NCBI GenBank assembly: GCA_037176725.1
Contig: JAZBRS010000060.1
Location: 57,440,001 to 57,504,000 of the forward strand
DNA: 64,000 bases
Direction of reading: 5' to 3'
Source: Posidonia oceanica
Taxonomy: Eukaryota > Streptophyta > Magnoliopsida > Alismatales > Posidoniaceae
Part shown: piece after piece, positions 1-53,300 of the stretch
Position numbering within the stretch: position 1 is the first letter of the stretch
Layout: each line of letters begins with the position of its first letter
Notes under the pieces: generated by a model
Seen by the model: the letters and a program-made list of their open reading frames with translations, nothing else
What the model was told of the DNA's origin: nothing
Databases searched by the model: none
Program-made: the position numbers and the translations under genes

Positions 1-1961
1 ACCAATACTCCTTGCAGCACATTATCATTAATTCCCACTGTGATGACCAGTGGCAGCTCTTGCTTATGTGGAGGTGGAAGCTCTGAATCCTTGAAGACTA
101 TGTTTTCCCGTTCAAATTGCTGATTGGCTTTTTGAACTTGGCTTTCTTCCTCTATGTCTTCTTGTGGTTCCTCCACTACTACGGTGAGGTTGAACTGGCT
201 ATGGAGCTCCTTCACTGTTAGTCCTTCATCAACCTCACTATCCCAGTCATCATCCGAGATTGTCTCCCATTGTTCAGCTTGATTATCACAATCCTCTTCT
301 AGTTCAACATGGCTGTCCCAGTCCTCTGATGGATTAGGGAGTTGCTCGTCCTGGAATGCCATGACTTGATGCTTGGGGAGAGGGTCGTTGTAGACCTGTT
401 GAGATGTCCCTGTCTGCTTTCTTTGTTTGGCTCTTTTGACTAGGACATCCCATTCAAGCACATCTGCCTCCACCATGTCATAGACTATGTCCCTGAAGGT
501 CCAGCAGTCATTGATGTTGTGACCATGTATTCTATGGAATGGACAGTATTTGTTCCGGTCACAATTTGGCAATTCAGACCTAACTGACGGGAATTCGAGC
601 GCTTTTGCTTCCTCCAGTTCTATGAACATGTCGGCCAGTGTGACTGGTAGAGGAGGGTAATGGTCTCTTTTTCCCTTTTTGCGTGGCACTGGAGGGGGAA
701 TATTATGATAACCGGTCCCATTCCCAGTGTTGTTGGGGGGATTTCGGTTGTTGGCCTGGTCATTTTGATTACCCCTAGTCCATTGCGGCCGGGGAGCATT
801 CCACATTAGGCGGATCTGTTGCTGAGGAGGAGGATTATACCATGACTGCTGCTGCTGAGGAGGGTGGCTCCATGTTGGCTGCTGCTGAGGAGGAGGGTGG
901 CTCCAGGCTTGCTGCTGAGGAGGAGGGTGGCTCCATGTTGGCTGCTGTGAAGCCAGTATAGCCCTTTGATCGAATGGCCTAGGTGCGGGGCTCATCTTGT
1001 TGATGACTCCGATCACTCCCTCTATCACCTGTGCTTTCCGGCTTTTCTTTGGCTCCTCCATGAATTCATGCAAGTTTTCTTTAACGGAGGCTGCCACTTC
1101 ATACAAAGCCGTAACATTGGGGCAATAGGCATTCACTAGCCCCTTCTTCATTGGTCCAGTTGTATTTGCAATGAGGGTTTGAACCACTTGTCTCTCCGGA
1201 ATGGTCAGTCCTGATCTGGCCGCCATTTCCCGCCATCTGTTGGCGAATGTAACCCAGCTTTCGCCTTGCTTCATGACCTCCTTGCTTAGGTCGTGGAAGG
1301 TTGGCTTTGGATCTATCTTGTGCTGGTACTTTGTAAGGAAGCTCTCTCTGATTTTATCAAAGCTGCTGAGGTCTTCCTTGGAGAGAGTGAGAAACCAATC
1401 CATTGGCTCTCCTTCCAGTGAGTAGAAGAACAGGTGTATCACAAGCCCCAAATCATGGAAATAGGGGGCTAACTCCATTTGGAACTGCACCAAGTGACTG
1501 AGTGGGTTGGTGGTTCCATTGAACTTAGGAGTCTTTGGGTACTTGAAACCTGGAGGTAATCTAAATGGGGGGAACCGGCTCATGTCAAAGTTTGCCGGAG
1601 CGTGGGTATGCACCCCTAATGCACTGAGTATTTTTCTCATCTCATCCAAATTTGTTATCCCAGCTGATGGGGTCGGGACATGTGAATTGAAGGACGGATG
1701 GTTCTGCTGCTGATGGAGGTAGCTGTTGCAGAAATGTTGAGGCGCGACCTGCTCGTATCGCGGGGGAGATGCCTGGTGGTAATGATGATCCGGCAGAGGC
1801 TGATTGTCTGCCGGGGGTGGTCGGGGATGTCTCAGATAGACTATTTCCCTGTATTCGCCATGTGGCATGTGGTTGTGTTCCTGAGTCAAGGGATTGGCCT
1901 TTGAGTTATATGCTCCATTGAGCGCTGTGCCCTGTACTGGGTGGTTTGTGTGGATTGTCAT
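1..1961 (-). CDS. gag: Ty3/Gypsy gag (start of gag-pol), element A, open at left edge
   Basis: The minus-strand frame is open without a stop from an ATG at 1961-1959 to the window edge, about 653 codons; a TAG lies in frame directly upstream (1964-1962). It encodes a retrotransposon capsid polyprotein. A proline/glutamine-rich N-terminus is followed by a capsid-like domain (about residues 120-300) typical of plant Gypsy gag. Then come four short repeats of the type PPPQQQ-WSH (about 820-955) and a zinc-knuckle-like CPFHRIHGHNINDC at residues 473-486. The C-terminal part is acidic. The final codons at the edge (ELPLVITVGINDN) look like the approach to the aspartic protease, whose active site would lie just outside. 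It is intact as far as visible, so element A may be the youngest insertion. Family membership is clear; exact lineage is not. Confidence 0.9.
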   Translation of the reverse strand, partial: MTIHTNHPVQGTALNGAYNSKANPLTQEHNHMPHGEYREIVYLRHPRPPPADNQPLPDHHYHQASPPRYEQVAPQHFCNSYLHQQQNHPSFNSHVPTPSAGITNLDEMRKILSALGVHTHAPANFDMSRFPPFRLPPGFKYPKTPKFNGTTNPLSHLVQFQMELAPYFHDLGLVIHLFFYSLEGEPMDWFLTLSKEDLSSFDKIRESFLTKYQHKIDPKPTFHDLSKEVMKQGESWVTFANRWREMAARSGLTIPERQVVQTLIANTTGPMKKGLVNAYCPNVTALYEVAASVKENLHEFMEEPKKSRKAQVIEGVIGVINKMSPAPRPFDQRAILASQQPTWSHPPPQQQAWSHPPPQQQPTWSHPPQQQQSWYNPPPQQQIRLMWNAPRPQWTRGNQNDQANNRNPPNNTGNGTGYHNIPPPVPRKKGKRDHYPPLPVTLADMFIELEEAKALEFPSVRSELPNCDRNKYCPFHRIHGHNINDCWTFRDIVYDMVEADVLEWDVLVKRAKQRKQTGTSQQVYNDPLPKHQVMAFQDEQLPNPSEDWDSHVELEEDCDNQAEQWETISDDDWDSEVDEGLTVKELHSQFNLTVVVEEPQEDIEEESQVQKANQQFERENIVFKDSELPPPHKQELPLVITVGINDNVLQGVL

Positions 1962-2272: not shown

Positions 2273-2328
2273 CGTAATACGCCTCAGTATACGGCATATA
2301 ACGTTGGACGCAAGATGTCAGGCATTCA
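2273..2328. repeat. 28-bp hairpin units, site 1 (two units)
   Basis: Two abutting 28-bp units (2273-2300, 2301-2328). The second begins ACGTTGGACGC; a new ACGTCC starts immediately after it. Units resemble those at 2696, 3462, 4693 and 4922 but are more decayed. Confidence 0.6.
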
Positions 2329-2695
2329 ACGTCCCCAGTTGTATTTCCTCCAACTCTTTTCCTGTCTTTTTTCTTTCTTTCTCAGCCTTTCACTCTCTTT
2401 TTTTTTGGATTTTTGCTTTTCTTTTTTTTGATGATTTTATTTTCTCTTTTTTTTTTTGCTTTTTCTCTTTTTTGCTTTTCTTCTTTTCCTTTTTTTTTGT
2501 TTGTTTTTTTTTTTTGAAGGATTACAAGTGCGAAGAAAGGAAAATTACAAGAATTTTAATACAGGTTCCTAAAAAAAAAGTAAAAATAAATAGAGTTTTC
2601 CCTAACTGATATTGTCACTGTTTTGGATTTTTCAAAGTCTTCCTTGCCAAACAATTCACACAGAGGAGCTAAAATATGACAGCCACACAGAGAAT

Positions 2696-2751
2696 ACGTT
2701 AGACGCTTAATCTGCTGCGTACAACGTTATATGCAGGGATTTCAGCGGCCA
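2696..2751. repeat. 28-bp hairpin units, site 2 (two units)
   Basis: Units 2696-2723 and 2724-2751 both start ACGTTA and end in CA. The first pairs ACGC with GCGT across the unit. They are followed directly by ACGCCC. Confidence 0.75.
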
Positions 2752-3461
2752 ACGCCCTGTTTCAGAGAACTGCACAGCAACACTTTCAAACAGCGATTTA
2801 AGATTTTAATTTTGGTTTTCGCTTTGAGATTAGTGTTTTAAACCTGCTGTAGCTCTCTGGGTTCCTTAAGGCTTAGGTATGGTTTTTTTTTTGGATTTTC
2901 TAGGGCTCCTCACAAAAGAGGTGAATATGATTGGTACTATCCCCTATCTCAACTCCTGAGGATGCTAGGGGGAGCCTGAATACACTTAGGTCCCTACCCC
3001 GTAGAGGTAGAGCCCAGCGTACTCGGGATTGATCGGGTCACTCACGTATGTATAGACAAAAGAAATAAACAAACCACCGAAAGGGGAAGGAGGAATACAA
3101 GTCAAGGCTTGAGGTTCTAATTATCTTTCACAAGAGGCCAAGGAAGAAAGAGGGTCCCCAGCGAAAGACAATGACAATACAAGTACCTTTTCTAAGCCTC
3201 TTGCAATAGAGGTGCTTGGGACCTAGATGGTTACTTATATAACCCAAGAAATGACACAAGCAATTTAGTTCCCAATGAGGGCCATGCAAGTCATATAAGA
3301 AATATGTGATTTTTTTTTGTTAATTTTTTGGAAAGCACCCAAAGAAACTGAAGTTCCGGTCCCTACGGCAAAGCCGATCATCTCACACCTCAGTTCTTTA
3401 GGCCAGTTATAACAAAGAAAACTAAAAGAAATTTTAAAATAGAAGGGTTTCTGTTCAGTAG

Positions 3462-3517
3462 TCGTTAGACGTGGATATTGCAGCGTCCAATGTTAGACGC
3501 GTCAGATCACGCGTATA
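3462..3517. repeat. 28-bp hairpin units, site 3 (two units)
   Basis: Units 3462-3489 and 3490-3517 start TCGTTAGACG and ATGTTAGACG. Internal arms pair (GACG with CGTC; ACGCGT with ACGCGT). The next bases are ACATAC. Confidence 0.75.
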
Positions 3518-4253
3518 ACATACTGACAGTATTTTTTTCAAAAAAACAGTTATTTTTACAGATCACCCCCACGTCTGAGAATCCAAAGAAAAGGGGGAGG
3601 TGATTTTAGTTAATGACACGAAGAAAACAAACGAAAAGAAAGTCACGACGTCTCAAAACACTATGAGGAATTTCGTCGCTTCTCTAAATCATACGAGAAA
3701 ATAAGAAATTAAACTAAACTAAAAATGTCAATAATGGAGGAAGAAGAAAGAAAGGGTTATTTACCTTGCACAGGGGCACTTTTAGCGGTCCCACCGTGAT
3801 CACCAGATTGTGGATATGGAGTTTTGTGGAGCGAGGATGAAGATGACGAGATGGATGGTTTCTGGGGAAGAAGAAGGCTTCTTTTGGCTCCCTCTTTTGC
3901 TCGCTCTATCTTCTCTTTCTCGAGGTCCCCCTTCTTTGTATCCGACTTCATCACTCCACGTGTGATGGAATCGGTGTGATCGCCACTCTCGGTTCGCTTT
4001 CGCCGGCCCTCGAGATGCCTTTGGGGAGATGTAGTGTGGTTGTGGGTTCAGCTACCTTGGGACAACGCCAGCATTGTCCAAGGGTGCCCGTGCTCGGTAA
4101 GCTCTTTCTTCCTTCTTCCTCCTTGTATGACAAATGTTAGCAAAGTAAAACAAACAAGACAATATAAAAATGAATCAATATGTGTAGTAATCTATCCAGA
4201 GTTAGTAGAAATGAAAGTAAAGAAAACGTAGTGAGATACGTACCTGAGGGGTT

Positions 4254-4271
4254 TGATTCCCCTGGTTGCCA
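4254..4271 (-). promoter_or_regulatory. Probable primer-binding site of element A
   Basis: On the minus strand, one base after the LTR end (CTTTCA), the sequence reads TGGCAACCAGGGGAATC. It starts with the TGG expected opposite a tRNA CCA end, and its complement resembles a tRNA T-arm. I could not name the tRNA. Confidence 0.4.
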
Positions 4272-4623
4272 ATGAAAGAGATGTATGCCTAGTTAGAAGT
4301 ATATGAGCTTGAAATAAAAATGCTTGATTATACTACGGAATTAAACATGCAATATCAGAAATAAAAAAGAAATGAATGAAATAGAGTCTCCTTTGTCTAT
4401 GCACAAGGTGCAAACCGTGTTGGCATGAAGCCAACAACGACAAAAGGATCCTCAAGCTTCTTCTAAGACTCTCCTTCTTTCAAAAACTCTCTTCTCTCTT
4501 TCAATTTTTAAGGACCTCACTTCTCTAAGATTTTTAATCTCAAGAGCATGTGAGTTCCAAAAGTTTCTTAGCTCTTTGTTCTCTCAAAATTCCGGCCTCT
4601 CCACTCTGTAGGGGTACCCCTGC

Positions 4624-4630
4624 TTTTATA
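4624..4630 (-). promoter_or_regulatory. TATA box in LTR A
   Basis: TATAAAA on the minus strand lies about 350 bp upstream of the LTR 3' end and is followed by a C/T-rich stretch, as at a retrotransposon transcription start. Confidence 0.55.
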
Positions 4631-4692
4631 GAAGCAAGGGAGGAACAAAAAAGGACACAAATGCCAAGTCAGCAGAGTTTCCTGTTTTAGAA

Positions 4693-4748
4693 GTGTTATA
4701 CGCTGGAAGGCCAGCGTATAACGTTATAAGCAAGAGAACTTGCGTATA
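4693..4748. repeat. 28-bp hairpin units, site 4 (two units, in LTR A)
   Basis: Unit 4693-4720 contains a perfect 12-bp inverted repeat: GTTATACGCTGG at 4695-4706, loop AAGG, CCAGCGTATAAC at 4711-4722. Unit 4721-4748 starts ACGTTATAAGC and ends GCGTATA, with arms that again pair. Confidence 0.85.
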
Positions 4749-4921
4749 ACGACCTCTGAAGCATAACTGCCAGGATCAGAGAAGATTCTCCAATTAAGGA
4801 GTCTTTAAGTGTGATTAAACTCGACTTTGATGGCTTTGACCGGTCAACAGGTTCCAAAGAAGGCAAAAACATGATTTCTGGATTAGGCCAACTAAGGAAA
4901 GCTTTGGCTGACTGGGTTGCC

Positions 4922-5005
4922 ACGTTAGACGCTGGAAAGCCAGCGACCAATGTTAGCCGCTGGAAAACCAGCGCCCAACGTTGTACGCTGAGAATCCAGC
5001 GGACA
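4922..5005. repeat. 28-bp hairpin units, site 5 (three units, in LTR A)
   Basis: Three abutting units (4922-4949, 4950-4977, 4978-5005). Each has a central stem-loop: CGCTGG-AAAG-CCAGCG, CGCTGG-AAAA-CCAGCG and CGCTGA-GAAT-CCAGCG. The stem starts at 4930, 4958 and 4986, an exact 28-bp period. Confidence 0.85.
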
Positions 5006-5186
5006 ACACCCTTAATCAGTTTGACTTCCAAATTTGATCAAGACGTGAAGAACACTCAGGTTGCCAACATTTGGGGCTTAGAAAGGTATAGCACTTTGGA
5101 CTTGAGAGGAACATTTAGCTCAAGTGAGATTCAGAAATGGGTGGAGGGCCTCTAAAAGCGACCTAATGCAAGAGACTATCCTAACA

Positions 5187-5960
5187 TGAAGGGAGTGCCA
5201 AAACGGGGAATCTACAGCCACCAAATGACGGAGTTACATGCTGTGCAAAGTGTTGTGCAAGTGCAAGAGGCCGATAATGCGCCCCCATCGCCAAAGCTGT
5301 GAGGAGCTGGGGTGATGGTAAGGGCGGAAGTGTAGTGTGGTGAGCCTGCCAAACTACAGAGGGTTGCACCGGAATCTCAGGGATCAAGAGAGGATACGGA
5401 AAAGAAGGAGCAGGACCAGAAGAAAGGGCCATGCCTTGCAATCTCTGGGTCATAGCCCACAGATGTTGCGCTCGCATGGCAGAGGACTCGTTGACTGACG
5501 AGTCGGGATGTAAAGGTATGGCTGCCCAAGGGGGCACGAAAACAAAATAGCCGATAGGGACAAACCCTACAAAAGAAGTAGCCACAGCCGGTCGAGTTCC
5601 TGAAACAGGAAAGCCCAAGGAAGGGGCAGGAGTTGGGGTATCCAGAGCCCGAGTGGCGGTCACCGCGATAGAATCGGTGATGGGCTATATACTGACTGTG
5701 ACCCACGATTCCCCCGTGACAGACAGAGGGTCATCACGCACCTGGAAACGGAATGCATGGAAAGAAGGGGAAGCTGCAGTAGTAGGAGGGACCGAAGTCG
5801 AAAACTCCTCTAGTGCAACAGAAGTAAGAGGCTCATTGGCATGCTGGGCCATAGCTGACCGCGAGCGAGTATGGATAGGGCTGCGGCGAAAAGAAGGCAC
5901 ACGAGTCCTAGGACGAGATATCGTCGAAGCGACGAAAAGCTCGAAAAGAGGGGGGACCAC
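5187..5960 (-). pseudogene. gag: gag-like gene of element B, interrupted by element A
   Basis: One minus-strand frame runs from 5960 to the element A boundary with a single stop at about 5685-5687. The product is rich in proline, serine and alanine, with a short central segment (MRAQHLWAMTQRLQGM) resembling the N-terminal part of Tat-type gag proteins. Position supports gag: it lies downstream (minus) of the PBS and LTR of element B. The sequence switches to the LTR of element A at 5186/5187, so the 3' part of gag must lie beyond the left edge if it survives. I see no zinc knuckle here. The assignment rests mostly on position. Confidence 0.5.
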
Positions 5961-8047: not shown

Positions 8048-8225
8048 TGTCGCTCACAGGACACGTTCCCAGAATCACAGAGAAGATCAATGTGTTCAAA
8101 ACACAAATACTTGGCAAACAGGAATAAAACCAAGTAAACAGAGATCGAGGATGCTGAAAAAGAATGCAGGGACTAAGATGCAAAGTCCTGGAAAGTGCAT
8201 GCAATGCAATAGTTAAGTCCTTAAT

Positions 8226-8480
8226 GCAATTTGGACTATGATGCAATATGGCAAAATGCAAGGGCTTAAATGCAATGCCATGAAATGATGCATGCAATGC
8301 AATAGAGTAAAGTCCTAAATGTGATAAGGACTAAGATGCAATATGGCAAAATGCAAGAGCTTAAATGCAATGCCATGAAATGATGCATGCAATGCAATAG
8401 AGTAAAATCGTAAATGTGATAAGGACTAAGATGCAAAATAGGAAACATGCAAGGACTTAAATGCAATGCCATGAAATCAT
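8226..8480. repeat. 95-bp tandem repeat in LTR B
   Basis: The word ATGCAATATGGCAAAATGCA and its variants start at 8241, 8336 and 8431, an exact 95-bp period. About 2.7 copies with a few differences. Confidence 0.85.
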
Positions 8481-9710
8481 GGATGTATGCCATAAAGGCA
8501 GCAGCTGGACCTAAGTGCAAATAGGCAAAACTATTGGACCTAACTGTAAAGTAGCTAAAATGCTGTGAATGCAACAGTTGGACTTGTATGCAATATGATT
8601 AAAGGACAGGATCTTAATGCAATGTGGAAAAATGCAATATGATTCTGACGTGATTTAAATGCATGTATGCAGGACCCAAATGTAATAAAACTATAATGCA
8701 GGGTTTTAACATAATGCAATAAGGTTTTAAAAGTGATTTAAATGTAAATGCAATGCAAGAAGGACCTGGATGTAATAAAACTGAAATGCCAGATTTAATG
8801 TTAATGCAGCTTGCATGCAATATGATTCGGCAAAAATAAAAGAAACATATGATAACTTAAGTAAAGGAACAGTGGTTGCTCACCTGAGAAGAAGCTGCTT
8901 GCCGGTGGAGTTGGTTGCTGGGCTGCTGGAGGCGCGTCCGGGCTTCAGCGGCGGCAGGGAAGGCAAGAGGGTGGTCCAACAGAGATGTGCCACCAGAGAG
9001 AAGGCTGAGTTTGGCTCTGTGGATGCGCTGGTGGCTCACCGGAGTCACGCCAAGCTCTGCCGGAGCCGGAGAAGAGGAAATCTCAAGAGGTTGGTAGAGG
9101 ACTTTGGGCCCAGGGAAGGGGTCCAGAAGCTAGAGGGAGGTCCACCAAGGGCGAGGGGGATGTTATTTGGCCGTGGCAGCGCTCGGAGGCCTCTGACGAC
9201 GTCGGTGGGTCGCGGTGCTGAAGCTCTAGTTCGCGGCGATGCTAGATGCTGTGACACGGGCTCTGCGGTGTTGGCCTCGGTCGTGGGAGGTCCGGCGAAG
9301 CTCGCGGAGGCTTGAGCGGGGCGGCGCGAGGTGATGCGACCAAGTTGCAGCAGTTGGGTTCGCCAGGGAAGACGACCTGAAGCAGAGGTCGTGAGCACAG
9401 CTGGGCGAGCTCAGGAGCGTTGTTTGGCTGCGGAGGAGGTTGCTGGAGGTGTGGTGATGCAGAGGAGTCACTTAGGAAGCAAGGTGGTGCAGTGGGTGCT
9501 CTTTGTGAGTGAAGGTGGATTTGGGTGCAAGAAGAGGAGGCTGCTGGTGTGCTGTGGCTTGGGATGCGAAGGAGGTAAGCCAGGGAGTGTGAGGAGCAAG
9601 CTAATTGTCTCGGGGGGCTAAGGGAATGGAATTACACAGCCGGGCTGAAGGAGAATTGCCAGCCGGGTGAGAAGAATTGCCAGCCAGAGGAAGGAGGTGG
9701 AATGGTGTTG

Positions 9711-19124: not shown

Positions 19125-19963
19125 CTGCGATCGATAAGTCCAAAACTTATCACGTCAAGCCCTCTTTGCGATCAGTAAGTCCGAAACTTATAATCTCACC
19201 CTTTCTGGTCGATAAGTCTGAAACTTATCACTTCTTATTCTCTTTTGCGGTCGATAAGTCTGAATCTTATCCTTTTCGGTCGATAAGTCCAAAACTTATC
19301 ACTTTTGCGGTCGATAAGTCCGAAACTTATCCTTTCCGGTTGATAAGTCCGAAACTTATCACTTTTTATCCTTTTGCGATCGATAAGTCCAAAACTTATC
19401 CTTTCCGGTCGATAAGTTCGAAACTTATCACATCACTCCTTTCACAGTCGATAAATCCGAAACTTATCACTTTTCACCCTTTTGCGATCAATAAGTCTGA
19501 AACTTATCACTTTTTATCCTTTTGTGGTTGATAAGTTCGAAACTTATCACTTTTTATCCTTTTGCTGTCGATAAGTCTGAAACTTATCCTTTCCGGTCGA
19601 TAAGTCCGAAACTTATCACATCACTCCTTTCATGGTCGATAAGTCCGAAACTTATCACTTTTTATCCTTTTGCGGTTGATAAGTTTGAAACTTATCACAT
19701 CATTCGTTTCACGGTCGATAAGTCCGAAACTTATCACTTTTCACCCTTTTGCGATCGATAAGTCCAAAACTTATCACTTTTTATCCTTTTGCGGTCGATA
19801 GGTCCAAAACTTATCACTTTTCACCCTTTTACGGTCGATAAGTCCAAAACTTATCACTTTTTATCCTTTTACGGTCGATAAGTCTGAAACTTATCCTTTC
19901 TAGTCGATAAGTCCAAAGCTTATCATATCATCTTTTCTGGTCGGTAAGTCCGAAACTTAACAG
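19125..19963. repeat. Tandem array of 23 GATAAGT/ACTTATC hairpins
   Basis: Twenty-three units, spaced 29-43 bp, each carry GATAAGT, five bases (mostly CCGAA or CCAAA) and ACTTATC, a 7-bp perfect inverted repeat in most units. Spacers are variants of ACTTTTTATCCTTTTGCGGTC. The ORFs that cross it are by-products of the repeat. It lies between the antisense genes and the 3' LTR of element C. Confidence 0.95.
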
Positions 19964-29199: not shown

Positions 29200-32100
29200 T
29201 GTAGTAATCCTGAAATTCGGATCGTCCATGCACGATGCCAAAGCTCGCGTGCGCCGATCGGAATTAGGTTCACTATTAGCGGTTGGACCCGAGGAGGGAT
29301 GCTCTACTCGAAAACGTTGGAAAAGAGGAAAAAACAAAGATAAGACTAAATCAGAGTCGCCAACATGTCTATTAAATCAGGAGACAAGGAAAACCGAAGA
29401 AAGCATGAGAAATCATGCAAAAAAGAAAGAAAAAAGAATACAAATGCTATGCAAATGTGACTCATGCCTAGGATAAGGGCAATATGGTCATGTGCACCAA
29501 GAAAAAGGGCAAGGACTCCTGTTACGCACGGGGAAGGTGTTAGGCACCCCCGATACGTCCGAGAATCGGTCTTTCTAGACTTAACGCTCGCATATGCAGA
29601 AAGATGCATGCTGTGAATGCCTAAATGCTTTGAATGCTTAATTACATGCTCAAATGTATGCTCTAAGTGCCAAGATGCGTGTAGGGAATTAAACGTGCAA
29701 TCTATGTGCTCAGCTGCGCTGCTAGTGTTCCGAACGGGCAAGCCTTGGTTCGTGAGAACTCCTAGGCAGTAAGCATCATCGCCCTAAATGCAATACAGGC
29801 GATAAATCAAAGCAGTGATAAACCATGCAAATTCGAAGTGGCATGCAACATGGGAAACAAAAACAGGGCGGTGAAGCCTAATCTACATGCACGAGAAAAC
29901 AGATCTCGAAAACGATGTATGCAATGCAAATGATAAGACAATGAATGCTATGTAGTGATTTAGGTGGGCTTATCTTGAAGATCTAAGGTCTGATCTGAAA
30001 TAACTTTGGTTAGAATGGAATATCATTCAACCAGGAAGACCTGGATAGTTAGATCGTAAAGATCCAACGGTCCGATCAAAAGTTATTCAGGAATCAAGTC
30101 AGGTGGCTCAAGGACCAGGAAAAGTGGTCTAAGTAGGGGTCTAAGTGCAAGTTACCCTTATGTGTGTGCAATGCAGGGTGTGCTACATGTTATGAAGCTA
30201 ACAATGTTAAAACAAGTGCAATGGTGCAGTATGCAATGATATGGGAGTGCAATGCATGCAAAAATGCAAATGTAGGGACCTAAGTGCAATTAAAATAACT
30301 ACAGGGGCCTATATGCAAAAATATGGCAAAAAGGCAATGCAACAGGGTAAATACATGATAAGAACTAACAATGCAATATGGTATGCATGCAGAAGCAAAA
30401 TGCAACATCGGATAAAAGAAGGCATGCTACAGCAAAAGATAGGGACCTATATGCAATACAGGAAAACTATAAGGTTTATGTGCAAAGCAGAGCAAGATGT
30501 GAATTATGCAGCATTTGGACCTACATGCAGTTCAAAAAATATAGTGGACTTATTTGCAATGTAAGACAGACATGCAAGCAGGTAAGTAATTGAAATTAGG
30601 ACCAACATGCAATTAGCATAAACTATTTGACTAAATTGCAAAAGCAAGATAAACAAGCAAGCATGCAATGATCTTAACATTTTTGGACTGATATGCAATT
30701 GAAACAAACTATTGTATTTTACTGCAATGCAATATGATTTAAAATGCAACTAGAATGACATTTAAATGCATAAATGACTAAAATGCAAATAAAACAAGTT
30801 ACTAGACTAAACAGCAATGCAATATAGTTTAAAGCATGATTTAAATAAATGATTAAATGCAAACTGGACTGATATGCAATTATAATATTTTTCTGGGTTT
30901 TTATGCAATGCAATAAGGTTAAAACAGGATTTAAATGAGTGATTCAAAGCAAAATGGACTGAAATGCAATTAAAGCATTTTTTTGGGTTTTTCTGCAATG
31001 CAATAAGGTTAAAATAGGATTTAAATGAGTGATTCAAAGCAAAATGGATTGAAATGCAATTAAAGCATATTTTTGGATTTTTCTGCAATACAATATAGTT
31101 TAAAACATGAAATAAATGAATGTTGAATGATCTGAGGATTGATTTGCAATTAAAACATGATTCTGGACTTTTATGCAATGTTAAAATGCAGAAATAAATA
31201 ACTAATTCATGATCTGAGGACTCAGATGCAAATAAAATAAATAACAGGATTAAAATGCAATGTAATAAGGTAAAATACATGATTTAAATGCTGTGATGAA
31301 TGATAGGAGGACTTAGATGCAATTATAGCAAACCACAGGATTAAAATGCAATGTAATAAGGTAAATAGCAAAATTAAATGATTACTGATATGGTCTAAGA
31401 ACTTAGATGTGACAAAAGTAAAATACAGAATTAAAAATGCAATGCAATAAGGTAAACATGACATTTAAATAATTACTGATATGATCTAAGGACTGAAACG
31501 TAATAAAAATAAACTGTAGAAATTAAATACAATGTAATATAGTTTTAATCAGAAATTAAATGAAATTTAAACTGACTCTGGACTGGAAGGCAAATAAACT
31601 AAACCTAGGGACCTAAATGCAATGCAGTAAAGTAAACAAGTAGAAATTAAATGATTTGAATTGAAATTGGACTGAAACGTAATAAAAATAAACTGCAGGA
31701 ATTAAATGCATTGTAATATGGTTTTAATCAGAAATTAAATGAAACTTAAACCACAACTGGACCTAAAAGTAATAAAAATAACCTGCAATAATTTACTTTA
31801 ATGCACTGAATCAAAACAAAAATCAAAACTATAGCTTGCTACAGTGAATAGTGATCTTTGAGCTTCTGCCACCTACGCCGGAGAAGGAAGGTCTGCCACG
31901 ACGATCCGACGGGCGTGCGATGGTGTGGAGGTGTCCGGAGGCTGGAGGGCGGTTGTCCGGTGGTTCTAAAGGGCTCGGCGGTACATGATGGTAGTTGGAG
32001 TGGCCTGTCGACGTGGGTGGACCTGCTGTAGAGGAGACCGGAGGTGGAGCGAGGGCTGGGGGCTGCTGCGGCGCTCGGGGAGCACAAGGCTGAGCTGCCG

Positions 32101-50300: not shown

Positions 50301-53300
50301 AACCAAGTATGTAGTTCCAGAAAAGGAAATGGGTTGGATTCCATGTTGTTGGACGTTATGTATGCATATAGAACCACTACATGGGTTAAATTTAACTGTT
50401 CAACAATTAAAATGTAGAAATAAATCCAAACATCTGAAAATAATAAAAAATCCAGAAATGATGGGCATCATCTCCTCACATAGAAGCACTTTTCCAAGAA
50501 AAACAAACAAATAACACCAAACAAAATAAAAAAATCCACATTTGATTCCAAAAATACACCATCAAAACCAAACCCAGCCTGGATATCCAATATCCAATTC
50601 CTCCTCCCTCCTTTGGTGATGTCGACGCTGTAGCATCCACCATCGCCCCACCACTCGTTCGCCATTTGGGTGATGTACCTTTGTCACCCTTCCTTCCAAG
50701 CAGAGGACGCCATTGTTTGCCTCGACCCGTTCGACCTCTTTGCTAGCGAGGACCTCTTCAACGACCTTGTCGTCTCCCTTTCTCTCCTTAAAGAGATTGC
50801 CGTCATGAAGGAGCAACGGAGCATGGTGATTGGAGTTCTCATGGTGCTGTAGTCCTTCGAGTGGGTTTGGTGTTCAACCAATGGAGCATCTTAATCGCCA
50901 CCGTTGTCGTCTAAGCTGCCATCGTCGTGTTCCTGTCGATTGGGGGTAGAAGTTGGACCTAATGTTGCACGTTGTCGATGTAGTTGCACACTGTATCGCA
51001 CAATTGAACATTGACTCCACGTCTATCGGAGTAAGTAGACCTAGAAATCGGGTTGGGTCGGAATTAGAAATCCCCCGGCCTTAGCACGGCCCATGGCCTT
51101 ATTTATTTTGGATCGAGCTGAGACTAGGTCGCACTGGGCCTATTTCGAGCCGATTCTGATGAATTTATGTAATTTTAAAATTAATAAGGAAATTGAGAAA
51201 TCATATTTAATAACTCAAATACATTGATAATACCATAAATGGTTGTTAATACATAAAAGAAAGGAAATAACATTACATCGAAATTAAAAAATAACTAAAT
51301 CTTCGTTTGTGTTGTTGGTAGTCGAAGACGAAATCAAGTTGTAGCGTTTACGATCATGTGCTTTCTATAGCTTTACATAATTTTTCATATATCTGTGTAG
51401 ATAAGTTATTGGAGTACAAGGTTTAAATCAAAACCTACGATTGCAATAATTGCAAAAATAATAGAACTCCTCATTTTTATCTTTCCCGAAGACATGCATC
51501 AATTCCGAATGTCATGTTGGATCCATCATGAAAACTATTGAAAGATTAAAATTCAAAAGAGAAAGAAGAGTAATGAAGCAGCAGAGGATAGATGTTTGCT
51601 TTTAGAAGTGGACGTTCGTTTTTTGACACACAAAGTTCTGTGTCAAAATCGGATCGGATGTCTAGTTTTACAAAACATAGTAAATTCTGTGTTAAACATT
51701 CGTACATTCATTATTCACATTCACATTCACTTTCAATCATTCGCATTCATTCACATAGACATATTCACATCCATTCATTCATTTCAAATCACATTCATAA
51801 ACAAGATTTCCATAAGAGCAAAATTCATTCCTTTATAAATTCAATTACTTTATAAATTCAATTAAGAAGATTGTAAAATACATAATTGTATGAAAATTAC
51901 ATGAAATATGAAGAAACCTGAACAAAATCTATTAAGGAGGAAGATATGATCCAAGTACATCTATAATATGAGACATTGATATTGATTTGTGTTGCATATC
52001 TCGCTTATATTCCAATCTCCAATTGAATAGGTATTCCTCGAGCTTATCTAATAGGTCTAGTTGCATTTAGACTTGTACTTCTTCTTCTTCTTCGTACTCT
52101 TAAGTGGATTCCTTTTTTTGTTCTTCTTTTTCTTGCATTTGTGTTGGAGGAGGTTAGTAGAAGAAGATGCATCACGTCCACATCCACGTTTGCTTCTTGA
52201 AATCAATTGGCTTCGGACGAAATTTGAGCAGTTATATCATTGATGATGTTCGATAAATGATTCTTTTTGAATATCATTACGATAATAGTTTAAAATATGA
52301 GTGATAAGGCTATCATACCAAAGGTGAGTTCTTTTGGTAGCTATGAAGTAAAGTATATACTTCACCTAATTCACCTTTGGATGTTCAACTACAAATTGGG
52401 TATATATTTTACTCAATTCACCTTTAATGCATTATAAATTGTGAAACCACCATGTGGATGTTCAAAATTTTGAAAAGCTATAATTCTTTTTTGAAGAATC
52501 CCAATCCCTGTCAACATATTGATAAGTGACACACAAATAAGGGGAATTATTAAGACCAATTCAAACATTAGAAGTTAATGCTACTTTATATTTTAAATTA
52601 CCTAGAGTTTGAATTAATTTTTATTTACTTAGGAATATTTCCAATTTGATAACATTAATGTGCTTTGCCTAAAATCAATTTTCTGTTGTAATGTCTCAAG
52701 ATAACAGGTCACATGTCTTCTTAAATATCCTGTCCTTCCTAAATCACCACAAGTAAGATTCTTGTTATATATATTACATGTACATTTCCTAGGATCATTA
52801 AACTTTTGAGTTAAATAAGTCCAAACATCTTATCTTTTTTTTTTTTCTGGAGTTTTGAATATTAGAACTAGAGGGTGTGGGTTCTAAATCTTCTATTGTC
52901 ATTTCTATATTATCTAAATTTTTTACTGGATTTTGATTGTTAAGAACAAAATCATTTGATTCATTGGCCATTATGATTTATGAAACAAAAATAAACTACT
53001 ATGATAATAGTACTAAACACTTCAAAAAAATTAAAAGAATAAATTGTAAAATGAAGGGTTAAGAAGAGAATAAGAATGGAGAAGAAAGGAATACCGATGG
53101 CAATTGACGAACATGTGAAGAGTCAGAGAACCTAAGACCAAGAACTTCAACTTTTATTTGAATACTTAGACTTGAGAGTAAGATTACAAGAAGCTAAGAA
53201 CTTTGAGAAATAAAAAGAAGTAAGAAATTTTGTGTGGATGGAAGAGGAGATAGGGTACTATTTATTGATGTTTCAAGACTCCAATAGTTAGAAATAAAGT

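Follow-up and report, generated by a model that had tools for sequence, protein, structure and literature searches.

The stretch analysed here, referred to below as the window, comprises 64,000 nucleotides of the Posidonia oceanica genome (C59:57440001-57504000; C59 and C1 are contig labels, and L009 to L045 are loci fetched from the 2.96-Gb assembly). It contains part of element A, a single minus-strand Ogre/Tat-like long terminal repeat (LTR) retrotransposon of 22,246 bp by coordinates, which carries 11 self-complementary units at five sites, ten of them 28 bp and one 29 bp long. The two arms of the units are copies of one 9-base half-site, GTT-[AG]-[GT]-[AC]-CGC (GTTRKMCGC), facing each other across a spacer that is nearly always 10 or 11 bases long. 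Judged from the sequence, the units are probably sites for a dimeric DNA-binding protein that would drive or protect transcription of the element. The features of the element within the window are as follows.

2274-2302 (29 bp) and 2303-2330 (28 bp), minus strand: leader site L1, two units
2698-2753, minus strand: leader site L2, two 28-bp units starting at 2698 and 2726
3464-3519, minus strand: leader site L3, two 28-bp units starting at 3464 and 3492
4695-4750, minus strand: U3a, two 28-bp units starting at 4695 and 4723
4924-5007, minus strand: U3b, three 28-bp units starting at 4924, 4952 and 4980
4625-4630, minus strand: TATAAA, predicted core promoter, at LTR base 587
3809-5216, minus strand: 5' LTR (TGT...ACA), 1408 bp
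5217-5221: target-site duplication GCCAC, 5 bp, with its other copy at L030:2966-2970
3-1961, minus strand: gag open frame, running off the window, with a weak Pfam gag match (E 8e-4, below the cut-off)

A first-pass annotation of this DNA had described 11 units of exactly 28 bp at five sites; the number and the sites stand, and the length holds for ten of the 11, the first unit being the one of 29 bp. The true register of the units is GTT...AAC, with two units ending in AAT. In the register of that annotation all 11 units end in CA or TA, as had been stated, and the start AYGTTA, ascribed to nearly all of them, is found in six. A covariance model built from the 11 units recovered all of them on the plus strand in an unfiltered search of the 64-kb window (E 5.4e-10 to 1e-4), and their presence is beyond chance; besides these units the search gave nothing at E < 0.05, the next match being at 51621 with E 0.054. 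The description of most units as folding on themselves applies to the six that have at least nine of 12 Watson–Crick pairs, whereas the other five have only six to eight. The U3a stems are perfect or near-perfect (12/12 and 11/12 pairs), and the unit at 4695 is the sole 28-mer in the window in which all 12 arm positions are paired. The same kind of unit is indeed present in both the LTR (U3a and U3b) and the leader (L1, L2 and L3).

The half-site was defined from 26 unit positions, each represented by the majority sequence of between one and 24 copies. Their 52 halves gave the profile G 50, T 52, T 49, A28/G24, G26/T23/A3, A41/C10/G1, C 50, G 51 and C 49. When the exact pattern GTTGGACGC-Nk-GCGTCCAAC was counted genome-wide for k = 9–12, together with a reversed-pattern control, it was found 55 times at k = 9, 13,952 times at k = 10, 82,515 times at k = 11 and 67 times at k = 12, whereas the control gave 0 at each k and the chance expectation was about 0.014. 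A spacer of 10 or 11 bases is thus present in 96,467 of the 96,589 exact pairs. In a local scan of 22 ten-kb loci (L009-L030) and the window element, with one mismatch allowed per half-site, facing half-sites had a spacer of 10 in 152 cases, of 11 in 17 and of 9 in one, the others among the 12 commonest spacers listed being at least 31, and back-to-back half-sites had a spacer of 0 in 86 cases; a Markov control contained none at facing spacer 10 and none at back-to-back spacer 0. The spacer sequences in the genome-wide listings differ widely. Since the spacers carry many substitutions and hardly any insertions or deletions, their length appears to be constrained. One turn of B-DNA spans 10–11 bp, which would place both halves on the same side of the DNA, as a protein dimer needs. 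Inverted pairs of one half-site spaced 10 or 11 bases apart, and set in arrays, would bind such a dimeric protein, and in the tandem arrays the back-to-back halves would form a second, spacerless palindrome.

The geometry also bears on a neutral origin of the units, according to which they are an old palindromic minisatellite without function, multiplied through slippage and template switching within a small number of amplifying lineages. The tandem arrangement, the non-coding places, the difference in the number of U3b units between copies and the diversity of the units, which in element A is not below that of their flanks, would all agree with such an origin, and tandem arrays are described as common in such elements in portions of PMC11963269 and PMC6317226. 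However, spacers of very different sequence almost all have a length of 10–11 bases (122 of the 96,589 pairs have 9 or 12), and the geometry is common to several flank groups and is retained by units parted by gaps of 15–19 bp. Moreover, the half-site core is kept where positions 4–6 and the spacers differ. A neutral origin is thus considered unlikely. In the first-pass annotation a selected structure or a mobile cassette had been preferred to a simple minisatellite; the former part is upheld by half-sites and a spacer length that are fixed around a variable spacer sequence, and the cassette part is not supported, as described below.

A second explanation takes the units as RNA stem-loops in the genomic RNA or as hairpin sources of small RNA, with the arms as the stem, the spacer as the loop and the pairing under selection. 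The near-perfect U3a stems favour it, as does the pairing within the 11 window units, in which 98 of 132 arm pairs are formed compared with 87.8 when arms are permuted (p 0.002); among 500 shuffles, four have at least the observed share of paired cells and 12 at least the observed covariation score. Without the two U3a units, 75 pairs are formed compared with 69.6 (p 0.065). The earlier statement that pairing is kept with changed bases is thus weakly supported in the 11 window units alone, and the signal is lost over the 26 unit positions, where the nine half-site bases show no pairing excess (187/234 vs 186.3, p 0.48) and the three variable arm bases pair no more often than between units (42/78 vs 41.2, p 0.46). 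A covarying RNA hairpin, which would need compensatory changes in the arms, was rejected on these two results. Furthermore, sense-strand mismatches over the 26 positions show no excess of the G.U type over the A.C type (8 and 9); in the first version of this comparison, with a 25-unit set, the counts were 9 and 12, with no strand asymmetry. The inner spacer bases of the 25-unit set are paired in 33 of 75 cases compared with 23.5 (p 0.012), and without the U3 units the excess is not significant (20/60 vs 17.0, p 0.23); the weak pairing of inner spacers, which is concentrated in the U3 units, is a further point in favour of a hairpin. The genome-wide spacers listed are not paired to significance, either for 44 N11 spacers (73/176 vs 64.2, p 0.07) or for 42 N10 spacers (66/168 vs 64.9, p 0.46). 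In addition, a hairpin does not require its loop to be kept at 10–11 bases, so that this explanation loses further support. RNA stem-loops and hairpin-derived small RNAs, both proposed in the first-pass annotation, are improbable in view of arms without covariation, listed spacers without significant pairing and equal mismatch types; among the roles proposed there, paired protein-binding sites appear to fit best, given the fixed geometry, the variable spacers and the arms without covariation. The case carries a caution: when few units are compared, a degenerate half-site present as inverted copies can be mistaken for an RNA stem that covaries.

The positions of the arrays within the element are consistent with binding sites for a regulatory protein. 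The order within the LTR is U3b (bases 210-293), U3a (bases 467-522) and then TATAAA (base 587), which is the sole TATAAA/TATATA match in the LTR, and U3a ends 64 bases upstream of this TATA-like box. The partner LTR lies at C59:57422971-57424377 and is 96.2% identical. On the minus strand, gag is followed in L029 by a protease with a G-patch, reverse transcriptase, RNase H and integrase, the RNase H region being a single 196-residue frame that matches RVT_3 and RNase_H across the same residues. The G-patch domain (PF01585, E 3.5e-10) lies behind the protease-like part of the frame L029:7654-9480 (minus strand). This gene order (with gag resting on the weak match above), the 5-bp duplication, the giant size and an extra open reading frame (ORF) with a Plant Mobile Domain (PMD) agree with an Ogre/Tat element. 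The PMD frame, PMD-A, is an antisense frame of 391 codons between integrase and the 3' LTR (L029:1030-2202; PF10536, E 8.6e-9, above the cut-off), for which a protein search gave two relatives. It is flanked by seven further units, at L029 521, 549, 596 and 624 on one side and 2401, 2444 and 2472 on the other, so that the window element has 18 unit positions (11 in the window and seven in L029), all of them outside the listed open frames. The arrays thus occupy non-coding sequence: they precede the TATA-like box of the LTR, occur within the leader and flank antisense PMD frames on either side.

Near-copies of the unit at 4695 were used to fetch the twenty 10-kb loci that surround them; as the loci were selected by the U3a sequence, the presence of U3a in them is biased and that of the other sites is not. 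All twenty have the same layout: U3 contains a pair of units and up to three more, and the leader, where included, has two, two, and one or two units. The U3a pair is present at the same place in 20/20 LTR copies, a figure subject to that bias, and the number of U3b units varies between copies. These copies bear on a third explanation, a small mobile cassette resembling a miniature inverted-repeat transposable element that inserts as unit pairs. Unit pairs do occur at many dispersed places, as a cassette would explain; however, the U3 arrays are orthologous in 20/20 LTR copies (with the same bias for U3a), no clean empty site or target duplication was found among the 20 LTR copies, which had been fetched by the U3a site, and the changes in number resemble tandem gain and loss within arrays. 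The cassette role suggested in the first-pass annotation is consequently very improbable. In the 20 LTR copies the diversity of the U3 units is 0.069–0.134, compared with 0.062–0.096 in the surroundings, and many changes in the U3 units are, by eye, of the CpG-decay type; for the leader units the diversity in eight copies is 0.135, 0.151 and 0.105, compared with 0.218, 0.124 and 0.136 in the flanks. A unit diversity no lower than that of the flanks is expected for dead copies and speaks neither way.

Among these loci, seven (L009, L014, L017, L021, L024, L025 and L027) contain a distinct antisense frame, PMD-B, with 28–37% identity to PMD-A and weak Pfam support (E 2.4e-6 in L027, below the cut-off, and no match in L021). 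PMD-B is preceded by three units, and in five loci four units lie behind it. In all five of these array-holding loci (L009, L014, L021, L024 and L025) an antisense-strand TATAAA lies within about 10 bases past the last of the four units, and past this TATAAA a further PMD frame is found in L035 (926-1279; PF10536, E 5.5e-9, above the cut-off). One LTR-bounded span contains both PMD-B and PMD-A (L014 and L034). As arrays thus stand beside promoter-like sequence on both strands, one factor could co-regulate the sense and the antisense genes.

Some further features of these loci may be recorded here. Alignments of the window element to L009, L014, L025 and L035 jump at about L030 7160 (C59:57427160), and the PMD-B block with its arrays, carried by other copies, was apparently lost from the window element. 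In L009 and L031 (C1:6113200-6127200), a gag frame 89% like that of the window lies past the PMD-B array and TATAAA, opposite in orientation to the neighbouring LTR; this locus is likely to be rearranged or nested. Two units in L009 are separated by a 17-bp gap (L009:9664-9680) that forms a short inverted repeat of its own and resembles a shrunken unit; in L024 this gap is GTTTTAACTCGTAAAAC.

The units are not confined to one repeat family. In twelve 1-kb samples picked by hand from the first listed matches on contig C1 together with L033, scanned for spacers of 7–15, there were 37 units with spacer 11 and three with spacer 10, and when the units were masked these 13 samples and two references fell into five groups by flank similarity. 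One group, L040, L044 and L045, has the LTR start and the core promoter in common with element A. At the corresponding U3a position, immediately upstream of the core promoter, element A has two 28-bp ATA units, whereas these three loci have two 29-bp GGA units (GGA in 10/12 halves and AGA in two), so that the half-site variant and the spacer length differ jointly across the array. Compared with the window copy of element A, L045, L044 and L040, respectively, agree at 20, 21 and 20 of 24 half-site core bases, at 5, 5 and 4 of 12 bases at half-site positions 4–6, at 8, 8 and 10 of 20 spacer bases, at 43, 42 and 43 of 59 bases of the upstream flank and at 89/109, 73/99 and 87/110 bases of the core promoter. 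Another repeat family, starting TGACACCCC, lies at L015:5906-8270 and L017:9272-9910 with 14 and four units, respectively, mostly of 29 bp and with spacer 11 in 17 of the 18. In L015 this repeat lies within a gag-like frame and in L017 within PMD-B; it is perhaps an LTR.

If the units are binding sites, the bound protein would activate the transcription of the element or would de-silence and protect it. A comparable arrangement is known from VANDAL21 of Arabidopsis, in which binding of VANC21 to the motif YAGTATTAY is proven both in vivo and in vitro, short motif arrays occupy non-coding parts of one transposon family, the element carries an extra gene and motif variants differ between related families, as given in portions of PMC5735166. 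The 18 unit positions outside open frames likewise form arrays in the non-coding parts of element A. VANDAL21 is, however, a DNA transposon with a short direct motif according to the same portions, whereas the present carrier is an LTR element with an inverted pair, a one-turn spacer and a putative binder. By analogy to VANC21, a protein of the antisense PMD family encoded by the element is a tentative candidate for the binder, and a host transcription factor, ranked slightly below it, is a somewhat weaker possibility. A complete circuit of the VANC type is rather doubtful: in it the antisense PMD proteins would bind half-sites spaced by one turn in U3, the leader and the promoters of the antisense genes, would activate or de-silence both strands and would co-evolve with their sites (ATA to GGA, spacer 10 to 11), with about 100,000 copies of this cis code.

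A host protein could also bind the arrays as a silencing or repressor target and repress the elements. The same site in several families is what a host factor would allow, and host PMD proteins function in silencing (portions of PMC7156037 and PMC9899485). Under such repression, however, lineages would be expected to lose the sites, and instead the arrays persist beside predicted promoters; in addition, the half-site variant and the spacer changed together. Repression by the host is hence improbable, and binding that drives or protects transcription is preferred.

Besides the pairing within the window units and the inner spacers, and the units of element A that evolve no more slowly than their flanks, several points weigh against this preferred interpretation. 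As amplified families supply the copies, these do not count as independent events, and the evidence lies in the ratio of spacer lengths and not in the count. The advantage of the half-site core over the core promoter appears to be modest. By eye, no TATA is present beside the PMD-A arrays or the array preceding PMD-B. A PDB sequence search with the PMD-A product gave no relative, and its structure prediction was uninformative, with a mean predicted local distance difference test score (pLDDT) of 34 alone and 31 with an eight-sequence alignment. To our knowledge, DNA binding is not known for the PMD.

Known promoter motifs and related elements offer further comparisons. The Arabidopsis DOWN motif of MAIN/MAIL1/PP7L is likewise a promoter motif linked to PMD-domain proteins; it is quoted for the MORC1 promoter as CATGCAGTTT, with direct binding not shown there (portions of PMC7156037 and PMC9899485). 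The units were rejected as copies of this host motif, CATGCAGTTT being unlike GTTRKMCGC, which also counts against a PMD protein as the binder. In portions of PMC6317226, a PMD is reported for 57% of Ogre elements and an Ogre size of up to about 24 kb, and G-patch and PMD are among the extra domains of plant Gypsy elements in portions of PMC9289625. The present carrier resembles the giant Ty3/gypsy elements described there in its PMD frame, the G-patch beside the protease and the long non-coding parts, whereas inverted half-site arrays are undescribed in those portions of the two reports. Retand elements with antisense TRP28 ORFs share an antisense ORF between pol and the 3' LTR and nearby tandem arrays, for which a regulatory role was proposed; their arrays are, however, highly variable and family-specific (8–100 bp), whereas here one geometry spans several families, arrays also occur in U3 and the leader, and PMD replaces TRP28 (portions of PMC11963269). 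In a full-text literature search for the half-site letters, the 30 matches listed out of 172 look unrelated by title, and no description of such a half-site or spacing was found in the open literature. Extra ORFs, tandem arrays and PMD are already known in such elements; the half-site and its spacing are apparently new within the open literature. The half-site may also resemble GCGTTNAACGC motifs in peanut DNA.

These findings bear on the reason for the extra antisense genes and arrays of Ogre/Tat and Retand elements. The geometry of the site is exact, and a single half-site variant already accounts for 96,467 exact places; such a site offers a direct probe for the binder: one 29-bp oligonucleotide could be used to fish for it, and each PMD product can be tested against the same site. 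With a binder encoded by the element, sequence-specific anti-silencing would no longer be limited to DNA transposons but would include LTR retrotransposons; with a host factor as the binder, the genome would store a vast number of its sites.

The window also contains other tandem repeats. A long array at 19234-19959 has a unit with the inverted pair CTTATC...GATAAG, unrelated in sequence to the 28-bp units, and two ATGCAAT-rich tandem repeats lie at 8196-8485 (about 95 bp) and 30814-31180 (about 90 bp).

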